Shown here: positions 5,374-36,867 of the stretch, one piece after another
Position numbering within the stretch: position 1 is the first letter of the stretch
Layout of the letters: every line of letters begins with the position of its first letter
Assembly: GCA_903833215.1 (NCBI GenBank)
Contig: CAILEM010000120.1
Coordinates: 1-44,379, forward strand
Length of the DNA stretch: 44,379 bases
Reading direction: 5' to 3'
Source: an uncultured Armatimonadota bacterium
GTDB taxonomy: Bacteria > Armatimonadota > Fimbriimonadia > Fimbriimonadales > Fimbriimonadaceae
Program-made: the position numbers and the translations under genes
The notes under the pieces: generated by a model
Told to the model about the DNA's origin: nothing
What the model saw: only the letters and a program-made list of their open reading frames with translations
Databases searched by the model: none

Positions 5374-7011
5374 ATGACCCTCTACCCAACCAGCATTCGA
5401 GGAAAGCTCACCCTCACCGCAGTGTCGGTGATGGGTGTGCTGTTTATCTTGCTGGGTGGAGTCGTTCAAGTCGCTGGCCGTGCTCAGATCATGTCGAACG
5501 TGGATGTTGAGCTATCCAAGCGCGTCGACGATGTGATCCTCGCCCAGAAGAAGGCGGCGAAGTTCATGCGCCCACCTCCAGGAGAAGGTCGAGGTGATCG
5601 CGGTCCGGATGGTCAGGGGCCAGGCCCAGACTTTGGCCCTGGTGGCGGGCCTGATGGGCGGCCACCCCAAGATGGGGGAGGCGGGCAAGGCCCGAATGGA
5701 GCTGGCCAAGGGGACAATCAGCGAGGCGACCCGAATCGCCCCAACAATGGCAACCGTCCGCCTGGTCCACGCATCAATGCTTTTCGCCAGGCATTGAAAG
5801 AGATTGGAAACCACCTCCTTGCCATCGGGCCCCGCTTTATCGCGGTCGATCCGGGGCCACCGTTTGCGCCTCCTGACATGATGGAGGCATACGATAAAAC
5901 CGTCATACCGAAGGCGATTGCCCAAGGGATCGCCTTCTCTGATGTGGTAATCGATGGTCAGAAAGTGCGGATTATCACCAAGCTTGCGAAGGAGAGTGGC
6001 GGGCACCGTTGGTTGGCTCAGGTTCCTTATCCACTTGGCGATGTGGACCAGTCACTGAAAACGCTTAACCAGACGCTCCTGTTGCTGCTCCCGTTTGGGC
6101 TTTTGCTGACTGCCGTTGCGAGCTTGTTTTTGATCAAGCGCGTTATGCAACCGATTCGCCAGATCTCGACGACGGCAGATTCGATTAGTGCCGAAGACCT
6201 TTCCGGGCGGCTCGAAGTTTCGGGTTCTGATGAATTCGCCCAATTGGGAGGGACCATCAACGGAATGCTGGCGCGTCTTGAGAATGCCTTTGAAATCCAA
6301 AGGCAGACCTTGCAGAGATTGGAAGTGGTTTTGAAGCAGCAGCGGCGGTTTACGGCCGATGCTTCACACGAACTAAAAACTCCGCTCGCGGTGATTAAGG
6401 CAAACACCGGACTGCTCAAGACCGATAAGGCCTTGTCTGAAGATACAAGGGGGCTCGTTGATGCCGTGGATTCGGCGGCAACCCGAATGAATCGACTCGT
6501 GCAGGGGTTGATGTTGCTTGCACGAACGGAATCGAGTGAAGTCAGTAAGACCCAAGAGCCTTTCGACCTGAAAATTGCCGTGCAGAATGCCATCGACCAA
6601 GTCCATCAGTCGCCTCTGAAGTCAGTGAACTACGTGGATGAAGACCCTGACGTTTATGTGCGTGGGGTTGAGCGAGATGTCGAGCGGGTGTTTGTGAACC
6701 TAGTCGACAACGCTTGCCGTCACACACCTGAAGACGGAAATATCAATGTCAAAGTGGAGCACCTTGGAACAGACGCGGTTGTCACCGTGGCGGACAATGG
6801 CGAAGGTGTGTCTGCCGAGCATCTGCCCCACCTGTTCGATCGGTTCTACCGGGCCGACTCGGCAAGGTCGAGCGACACGGGTGGAACCGGGCTCGGGTTG
6901 GCCATCTGCAAAGGAATCGTCGAATCCACAGGTGGGTCCATTTCGGTCACCAGCGAACTCGGCAAAGGCACCCAAGTGACGGTTCGATTCCCTCTGGCCA
7001 ACCTGAGCTAA
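5374..7011 (+). CDS. Sensor histidine kinase with Gly/Pro-rich sensor domain
   Basis: The 545-residue kinase has transmembrane segments at about 13-35 and 233-254, a HAMP domain (about 255-310), a dimerisation domain with phospho-acceptor H332 in ASHELKTPL, and a catalytic domain with the N-box NLVDNACRHT, DNGEGV and GTGLGLAI boxes. The extracytoplasmic domain contains a low-complexity tract at residues 67-132 made of Gly, Pro, Asp, Asn, Gln and Arg, followed by a folded-looking part (135-225). This resembles the Gly/Pro tracts of the divergent LTxxQ protein. It forms a two-gene operon with the response regulator. It ends 7 nt from the convergent ABC permease gene, with no evident terminator. 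Confidence 0.95.
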   Translation: MTLYPTSIRGKLTLTAVSVMGVLFILLGGVVQVAGRAQIMSNVDVELSKRVDDVILAQKKAAKFMRPPPGEGRGDRGPDGQGPGPDFGPGGGPDGRPPQDGGGGQGPNGAGQGDNQRGDPNRPNNGNRPPGPRINAFRQALKEIGNHLLAIGPRFIAVDPGPPFAPPDMMEAYDKTVIPKAIAQGIAFSDVVIDGQKVRIITKLAKESGGHRWLAQVPYPLGDVDQSLKTLNQTLLLLLPFGLLLTAVASLFLIKRVMQPIRQISTTADSISAEDLSGRLEVSGSDEFAQLGGTINGMLARLENAFEIQRQTLQRLEVVLKQQRRFTADASHELKTPLAVIKANTGLLKTDKALSEDTRGLVDAVDSAATRMNRLVQGLMLLARTESSEVSKTQEPFDLKIAVQNAIDQVHQSPLKSVNYVDEDPDVYVRGVERDVERVFVNLVDNACRHTPEDGNINVKVEHLGTDAVVTVADNGEGVSAEHLPHLFDRFYRADSARSSDTGGTGLGLAICKGIVESTGGSISVTSELGKGTQVTVRFPLANLS

Positions 7012-34670: not shown

Positions 34671-35051
34671 TTAACTGGCCTGGTTTCGCTTGCCAAATGT
34701 GGTGGCCAGCATCAACCAGGCCGCCAAGAAACACAGGCCGCCCAACGGGGTAATTGCGCCAAGGATTTTTATCCCCGTGATGGCAAGCAGGTAGAGGCTG
34801 CCGGAGAAAATTCCAATTCCGGCAACCATCAGCCAACCGGCGCGCTGGACCGCTCTCGCGCTCTCATGTGTCGCCAAGATGCCAACCATGACGATGGCCA
34901 GCGCATGGATCAGGTGGTATTGGACACCGGTTTGCCAGATTTTGATCGAAGCTTCTGAGATGCGATCTTTGAGGCCATGCGTGCCAAACGCTCCGAGCGC
35001 AATACCCACGAATGCTAATCCGGAACCAATAGACACGAATGACCGATTCAT
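34671..35051 (-). CDS. DUF423 membrane protein (YgdD-like)
   Basis: The 126-residue protein has four hydrophobic segments and the family patterns GIALGAFGTHGLKD near the start, YHLIHALAIV in the middle and LGGLCFLAAW near the end. DUF423 proteins are small inner-membrane proteins of unknown function. It is the last of three same-strand genes with the Acb2/Tad1-like gene and the MATE/ANKH transporter, separated by only 34 and 75 nt. Confidence 0.92.
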   Translation of the reverse strand: MNRSFVSIGSGLAFVGIALGAFGTHGLKDRISEASIKIWQTGVQYHLIHALAIVMVGILATHESARAVQRAGWLMVAGIGIFSGSLYLLAITGIKILGAITPLGGLCFLAAWLMLATTFGKRNQAS

Positions 35052-35085: not shown

Positions 35086-35436
35086 TTAGGCTCCGGTCGC
35101 CGAAAAATCTTCGTTCTCGTCTTCGGTTCGAACCGTCTCGTGACGAGACATGGTGTTGAGGACACCTTGCACTTGCCGTCGTTGAATTCTTTGAGCGAGA
35201 GACTGCTTCGCAAGTTTCAGGTAGCGAATGGCTTCAGCGTTCTCCTCGCAAGCAAGAGGCCCTTTTTGAAATTGGTCCAATTTGAACAGGGCAACATCGA
35301 TCACGTCATCGATGCGACAACCATTGACGCCAGCATCTTTCGGTAAGCCACATTGGTAGACCACCCGAATATAGGGCAGTTCTACGATTTCTCCGGTGCC
35401 GTAATGTGTCGGCGACTTAACCACAGGTTGTACCAT
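35086..35436 (-). CDS. Small protein resembling the Acb2/Tad1 hairpin family
   Basis: The 116-residue protein starts after GAGGAAAAGCA. It contains GVNGCRIDDVIDVALFKLDQ followed by FQKGPLACEENAEAIRYLKL and LAQRIQRRQVQGV. This pattern (V-G-V-N-G, then a helix with R-L and F-Q-x-G, A-C-x-x-N-A, and a final R-x-x-x-R-x-G-V) resembles the helical-hairpin family that includes phage Acb2 and Tad1, which bind cyclic (oligo)nucleotides and block host signalling defences. I recalled the pattern from memory and could not check it. The gene is chromosomal, not in a prophage, and lies between a DUF423 and a MATE/ANKH gene. The C-terminus is acidic and the N-terminus has KSPTHYGTGEIVELPYIRVV. Cyclic-nucleotide binding is inference. 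Confidence 0.6.
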   Translation of the reverse strand: MVQPVVKSPTHYGTGEIVELPYIRVVYQCGLPKDAGVNGCRIDDVIDVALFKLDQFQKGPLACEENAEAIRYLKLAKQSLAQRIQRRQVQGVLNTMSRHETVRTEDENEDFSATGA

Positions 35437-35511: not shown

Positions 35512-36867
35512 TCAATTTGTTAGCAAGTGTTGGCCAGAGGCCCTCACCTTCCTCCACGCGAGCGACAAAACGGCCAACTCGGCCAATAATGCGCTGGTCA
35601 CGGCAGTGGCCCCCAAAACCGGGCCGCTCCACCTGAATGTGACTCCAATTACCAATACGCCAATCAAAACCACCAGCATTCCCAGTACGGCGACCAGTCT
35701 TGAAACGGTCAAATGATGGGCGGTGAGAACGCCGCGGACATAAGCCTGGGCGGCGTCAACAAAAGGTACTGCAGCAGAAAGCAGATAGCAGGAGTGGGCG
35801 ACTTCGGTAATGGGCGGTTTTGCCTCTATCAGTTGCGAGAAGAGAATGCGGTCAAGTCCAGTAAGACCGAGGACAAGGATGAGCGCACTCGAGATTGCAC
35901 CCACGCCAAGACTGAAATTTCTCAGTTTCGCGACATTGGACTCCCCTCGATAGAGCGTGATTACGACTTCGGGAATGCAGAACGTTACCGCTCTGTGCAG
36001 AAACAGAATGGCACCGGCGACACCGCACCCGGCGAGGGCCAATACGGGTCGCTCTGTTCTCGCGAGGCCAGCACTTACGAGCGGCATGATCAGCAGATTG
36101 ATCATCGTTGTTGCCGTCAAAGGGAAGTGAAAGGCAGCGAGTCGCTTCATCGTCAATGGCCCATCCGCCGTGTCCGATTGGAGCGTGAAGTGACGAGCAA
36201 TAACATCGCGACTCAGCCAATGGATCAATCCCGATTCGATAGCTACCCCTAGTAGCAGCGCGCAAGCGGCGATGACAATGCTAGGTAGGTTTGTGAACCA
36301 GTACAAGCTCGCTGCCGTAATGATCAATGCGGCAACTCTAGCGGTTGTACCAACCCCGATCGGCCGGGTTTGACCGTGCCGTATGAGAATGCCCTGAAGG
36401 TATCGACGCCATCCGATGAGGGCGCTCCAGGGGATCAAGATGATGAGGCCCGAGCGTGCTGCTGCCGCGACTTCAGGTTTAACCCCCATCAGTCCTTCGG
36501 CAATGAGACCGTATATTGGCGACAGCACGATGGCAGCATGGGCGACCGTCACCCACAAGAGCAGATAGAGCACAAACCGGCTGATTTGTTCGTAGCGCTG
36601 CCGGTCTTTGGCCAGGGTGGTTGAGGTGGATAGGAGGTCAATGACTGGGCTCTCAATCCAAATGGCAATCGCCATGAGAATTGGCCATGCTGCTGCATTG
36701 ATCTCTGGGCTCTGCAGACGATTGATGACGCTTTCACAGACTGGCCCATCCAAGCCCATGAAGACCCATGAGATGGCGAGGGGTGAGTAGAACCTGAAGA
36801 TCGTCCAGGAGGATAGCTGCGGCGATTCTTCCAAGGCGTTAGGGTACCGCGCCAAAGAGTTGACCAA
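35512..36867 (-). CDS. MATE/ANKH-like multidrug or metabolite exporter
   Basis: The 451-residue protein has about twelve hydrophobic segments with charged loops such as LAKDRQRYEQISRF and RGESNVAKLRNFSL, the layout of the MOP superfamily. The segment SPLAISWVFMGLDGPVCESVINRLQSPEINAAA resembles bacterial relatives of ANKH (progressive ankylosis protein). The start is probably the TTG at 36867 (MVNSLARYPNALEE), the only candidate near the N-terminus. It stands at the head of a possible three-gene minus-strand unit with the Acb2/Tad1-like and DUF423 genes. The substrate is unknown. Confidence 0.7.
   Translation of the reverse strand: MVNSLARYPNALEESPQLSSWTIFRFYSPLAISWVFMGLDGPVCESVINRLQSPEINAAAWPILMAIAIWIESPVIDLLSTSTTLAKDRQRYEQISRFVLYLLLWVTVAHAAIVLSPIYGLIAEGLMGVKPEVAAAARSGLIILIPWSALIGWRRYLQGILIRHGQTRPIGVGTTARVAALIITAASLYWFTNLPSIVIAACALLLGVAIESGLIHWLSRDVIARHFTLQSDTADGPLTMKRLAAFHFPLTATTMINLLIMPLVSAGLARTERPVLALAGCGVAGAILFLHRAVTFCIPEVVITLYRGESNVAKLRNFSLGVGAISSALILVLGLTGLDRILFSQLIEAKPPITEVAHSCYLLSAAVPFVDAAQAYVRGVLTAHHLTVSRLVAVLGMLVVLIGVLVIGVTFRWSGPVLGATAVTSALLAELAVLSLAWRKVRASGQHLLTN

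Follow-up and report, generated by a model that had tools for sequence, protein, structure and literature searches.

Nucleotide sponges have so far been described as weapons of viruses and prophages, and the question raised by this locus is what a protein of such a family does when it is encoded on the chromosome of a Fimbriimonas-like Armatimonadota bacterium. The window (the whole stretch of DNA analysed, 44,379 nucleotides) has an ORF on the minus strand (35086..35436) coding for a protein of 116 aa, for which a membership of the Acb2/Tad1 hairpin family had been proposed from sequence motifs. It is considered here to be a host-inherited Tad1-family hairpin protein on the basis of the ORF itself, its homology to Tad1, a structural model with its fold match, and its orthologues. 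The gene is single-copy in the window genome, and GAGGAAAA, situated a few bases 5′ of its ATG, reads by eye as a plausible ribosome-binding site. All of the elements named in the original prediction were located in the protein, these being VYQCG (the FQxG motif), AGVNG, QFQKG, CEENAEA and an R...R...QGV run. Its Tad1-homologous core, delimited by match ranges, model secondary structure and conservation, covers residues 21-99 (35140..35376, minus strand) and is composed of a strand with YQCG, a GVNG loop, a helix (42-58), a CEEN turn, a second helix (64-90) and a segment running from QGV to H99.

The similarity of this ORF to the Tad1 family is far beyond chance. With the window protein as query, phmmer identified gp184 (8y6v, E-value 7e-8), CmTad1 (8kbb, E-value 1.2e-7) and CbTad1 (7uav, E-value 9e-4), while a profile of 31 host relatives matched CmTad1 (8kbb) with an E-value of 2.6e-16 and CbTad1 (7uav) with an E-value of 4.2e-11. 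Comparison by hhalign to a protein of the Nitunavirus phage SPG24 annotated as Tad1 gave a probability of 98.5% over 81 columns. There is also a match to PHROG 2428 (E-value 2e-14), and tblastn found 105 phage records matching the window protein. Searches of Pfam and NCBIfam gave no match for it, and neither was one obtained above the cut-off with the Pfam hairpin model PF24729. As a control, the same model also missed three of four phage relatives, indicating that it is insensitive. Significant profile matches to Tad1 were thus found, as the predicted family membership would lead one to expect, with the protein being closer to Tad1 than to Acb2.

Structure prediction agrees with this placement. 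The AlphaFold model (mean pLDDT 76) possesses the pair of long antiparallel C-terminal helices typical of Tad1, with pLDDT values of 89-97 in the hairpin blocks, preceded by an N-terminal region with two strands (17-20, 23-26) in which residues 1-13 are poorly predicted (pLDDT < 50). When the model was compared to the PDB with Foldseek, the first 20 matches were chains of apo-CmTad1 and CbTad1, and VIA-align Z-scores were 8.5-9.8 for Tad1 chains versus 6.8 for the first unrelated chain. As helical hairpins commonly give middling Z-scores, the weight of the assignment is carried by the sequence evidence.

Seven residues of the window protein, namely Q28, G30, G39, E65, N66, R83 and R87, show no variation across a set of 62 distinct host and 12 phage proteins. 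Three of these, N66, R83 and R87, correspond to positions 93, 110 and 114 of the CbTad1 chain, which we take to be the published ligand residues N92, R109 and R113, assuming a one-residue offset between construct and chain numbering. In the hexamers formed by Tad1 proteins, gcADPR or cyclic dinucleotides occupy pockets between the protomers, while the central channel takes up cyclic trinucleotides, as it does in Acb2 (PMC12043709). The Acb2 of T4 binds 2′,3′-c-di-AMP at ~62 nM, and the Panoptes system was set off by two Tad1 alleles, probably because these sequestered its nucleotide (PMC12657218). With the corresponding residues retained in the host protein, the simplest reading is that it would bind a related nucleotide. 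With somewhat more confidence than doubt, we therefore regard it as a putative Tad1-family nucleotide-binding buffer or receptor, vertically inherited by the host. By analogy to Tad1, it would assemble as an oligomer and bind, but not cleave, a small nucleotide that is cyclic or cyclised; this nucleotide would be a normal one of the host that is thereby buffered or sensed. Among the roles proposed earlier, the buffering of a host nucleotide signal is the best reading of the sequence. Possible uses include buffering, sensing with a docked partner and the restraint of immune enzymes.

As regards the identity of the ligand, family searches of the window genome gave matches to TIR_2 (four), DAC (one) and GGDEF (five), and none to the SMODS CD-NTase, ThsB or Cas10 families; the proposed search of the rest of the genome for CBASS thus yielded no SMODS CD-NTase. 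DAC, the c-di-AMP synthase family, is the sole tested cyclic-nucleotide synthase family with a match in every carrier of the hairpin gene (35 of 35), making c-di-AMP or a related adenine nucleotide the likeliest single candidate by elimination. It is to be treated as a lead, given that DAC is also found in non-carriers (60 of all 61 genomes). A link to c-di-GMP was set aside, as three near-complete carriers have no GGDEF match.

These markers also bear on a rather unlikely alternative, in which the protein would act as a host-encoded immune brake that captures cADPR/gcADPR made by TIR proteins, or CBASS-type nucleotides, at their basal level, and so sets a threshold against accidental abortive infection. 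These are the very signals held by known Tad1 proteins (PMC12043709), the four TIR_2 matches of the window genome fit such a role, and all five SMODS matches above cut-off are in carriers (p 0.066, all relatives). However, 11 of the 35 carriers lack SMODS, ThsB, Cas10 and TIR_2 altogether, so retention of the hairpin gene does not depend on these markers of CBASS, Thoeris, type III CRISPR and TIR; no marker association with the gene survives within the family, and no defence gene lies nearby. A negative association with Cas10 (p 1e-4) and a positive one with TIR_2 (p 6e-4), both seen across all relatives, vanish within the family and were attributed to lineage effects. The suggestion that the protein regulates a defence system is therefore weakened, both by the carriers devoid of the four markers and by the window genome, in which SMODS, ThsB and Cas10 went undetected.

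Host and phage proteins differ at a number of positions. Position 61 is Leu in 58 of the 62 host proteins versus an aromatic residue (Phe/Tyr) in phage, position 90 is Gln in host proteins versus mostly Arg in phage, and H99 is found in hosts only, the position being at or past the phage C-terminus. With Leu61 and Gln90 replacing phage residues, the ligand specificity of the host proteins may have changed or been lost. The window protein also ends with a genus-specific C-terminal tail, RTEDENEDFSATGA, which together with the stop codon occupies 35086..35130 (minus strand). The pattern R[TS]ED...[DE]FSATGA is invariant in all 20 members of the genus, whereas its codons differ freely. Each genome of the genus has a single FSATGA-stop pattern, which is invariably that of the hairpin gene, and a search for other proteins with an FSATGA tail found none. 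Fixed residues, varying codons and a single occurrence per genome strongly indicate that a short C-terminal peptide is under selection. The probable role of the tail is to dock a partner protein or to gate the pocket, in which case the protein would act as a receptor or regulator and not simply as a sponge.

An invariant genus-specific tail, along with the host-specific Leu61, Gln90 and His99, would also suit a scaffold or adaptor, that is, an old Tad1-type protein using its oligomer and tail for protein-protein contact without nucleotide binding. This we consider improbable, as none of the 62 distinct host proteins departs from N66, R83 and R87 at the Tad1 ligand sites, a constancy that would be unexpected had binding been lost. 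A nucleotide-binding buffer or receptor remains the preferred reading.

The hairpin gene had been predicted to form a three-gene unit with a MATE/ANKH exporter and DUF423. In the window, it does share its strand with a conserved 451-aa protein upstream (35512..36867, minus strand) and a DUF423 membrane protein downstream (34671..35051, minus strand; PF04241, E-value 1.5e-31), with gaps of 75 and 34 bp respectively. The 451-aa family is found within a few genes of the hairpin gene at 7 of 37 loci and DUF423 at 9 of 37. The arrangement is not kept in most relatives, which have other immediate neighbours that differ from genus to genus. The MATE/ANKH label of the 451-aa protein is unsupported, with no match obtained in Pfam, NCBIfam, PHROGs, PADLOC or PDB sequences, although the protein is clearly conserved. 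By eye it is hydrophobic and possibly belongs to an undescribed membrane family. An operon in which the hairpin gene, this membrane-like protein and DUF423 would together serve export or membrane homeostasis can draw on the shared strand, the spacing and the recurrence at 7 and 9 of the 37 loci; it is very unlikely in view of the differing neighbours in most relatives and the lack of any transporter profile match for the 451-aa protein. As neighbours change between genera, genomic context names no partner for the nucleotide-binding buffer or receptor favoured here, and the DUF423 and 451-aa proteins are probably neighbours rather than functional parts.

Other arrangements were observed among the relatives. 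In four genomes of family f5 (L058, L059, L060 and L061) the hairpin gene lies directly downstream of a common protein of ~560 aa which appears peptidase-like by eye, and in eight other genomes a protein of ~590 aa, M61-like by eye, follows it. A gene order running from the 451-aa gene through the hairpin gene and an M61-like peptidase gene (so named by eye) to DUF423 and a copper-amine-oxidase-N gene is partly common to another genus (L054).

The hairpin gene is present in 20 of 20 genomes of the genus and in 35 of 61 relatives. Across the phylum it was found in 68 of 291 genomes, all in two families of one order, and in the next family sampled (f2) it was not found in any genome. Two copies occur in several relatives, these being G002 and members of the genera g17 and g47, with most g47 genomes having up to two. 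Values of dN/dS, quoted for close pairs only because dS is saturated in several other pairs, are ~0.03 and ~0.05 for the two closest, indicating purifying selection on the gene. In a tree of the 80-column core, the hosts form one clade (support 81/80), and hosts together with Metabacillus are split from the 12 phage proteins (97/94). The host copies therefore did not arise by repeated uptake from the phages sampled. As the tree is unrooted, with few columns and only 12 phage proteins, it does not give the direction of transfer, and the gene may have passed from hosts to phages. The original suggestion of a domesticated phage gene is compatible with the vertical inheritance seen.

No phage setting was apparent for the locus, in agreement with the original description of a chromosomal gene outside any prophage and away from phage, CBASS or Thoeris genes. 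The genes around it belong to ordinary cellular families, none being a phage structural or integration gene, and no defence genes flank it; PADLOC gave no match for the window protein or the seven neighbours scanned. A plasmid search found no relatives of the window protein, while two scans of viral contigs detected just three distant ones, none of them like a recent donor. Outside the hosts, the closest homologues are phage proteins. Even so, it is hardly credible that the locus is what remains of a recent prophage or satellite with an anti-defence gene, since the gene is under purifying selection, forms a single clade, occurs in 20 of 20 genomes of the genus as well as in other genera, and sits among cellular neighbours without phage structural or integration genes. 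The window protein is not encoded by a phage or prophage and, being the product of a core chromosomal gene of the genus with no phage neighbourhood, is not filed here as an anti-defence protein.

Host inheritance of the hairpin fold is not confined to one phylum, as a second lineage was identified in the Bacillaceae. Nine Metabacillus/Bacillus genomes (L116-L124, around 5970-6250) have a Tad1-type hairpin gene coding for 81-102 aa, always at the same place on the chromosome, flanked by YprA-like and RecU-like genes (named by eye). A tentative reading of low probability is that the family was ancestrally a bacterial nucleotide receptor, kept in the Fimbriimonadales and some Bacillaceae for normal signalling, where its ligand would be c-di-AMP or some other endogenous molecule and, in Fimbriimonas, a partner would dock through FSATGA, and that it was captured by phages to become the Tad1 sponges.

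A literature search, whose reach did not extend to the original Tad1 reports or most subscription papers, found no host-encoded member described. If a host member with intact ligand residues does function as a receptor or buffer, cells would be using the same fold on their own signals, which bears on the origin of the phage sponges. A Tad1-like match in a bacterial genome is not, on its own, a sign of a prophage or of an anti-defence gene. Fimbriimonas ginsengisoli, a named species of the genus, has a cultured strain, Gsoil 348.

Among known systems, the window protein most resembles Tad1 (CbTad1, 7uav/7uaw/8smd; CmTad1, 8kbb/8kbc/8kbd; and the Tad1 of Nitunavirus SPG24), with which it shares a homologous core of ~80 residues, the FQxG, GxNG, FQ, C.EN and R...R motifs, the predicted hairpin and the invariant ligand-site residues. 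In contrast to Tad1, it is chromosomal and vertically inherited by its host, has a shorter N-terminal region and is without associated Thoeris or CBASS genes, while the host proteins have Leu for Phe/Tyr at position 61, Gln90, His99 and the genus-specific FSATGA tail. The N-terminal antiparallel β-sheet of Tad1 has four strands; in the window model it is short and poorly predicted, with two strands. Acb2 (T4 Vs.4, 7uq2) has the two-helix hairpin in common, and Pfam places Acb2 and Tad1 together in PF24729. However, its structural match to the window model is at background level (Foldseek E-value 4.0; Z 6.0, tied with unrelated hairpins), and Acb2 itself has neither the N-terminal sheet nor the FQxG strand. 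Csx15 is comparable solely in how it works, some members regulating host immunity by sequestering a nucleotide without cleavage; it has an unrelated CARF fold, binds cA4 and is tied to type III CRISPR (PMC13148439). The Metabacillus hairpin protein has the same core as the window family, lies on the host side of the tree and holds a fixed chromosomal locus in its nine genomes, but it is shorter, at 86-91 aa in this comparison, keeps R83 while having lost R87 and the QGV segment, and ends in a different tail.
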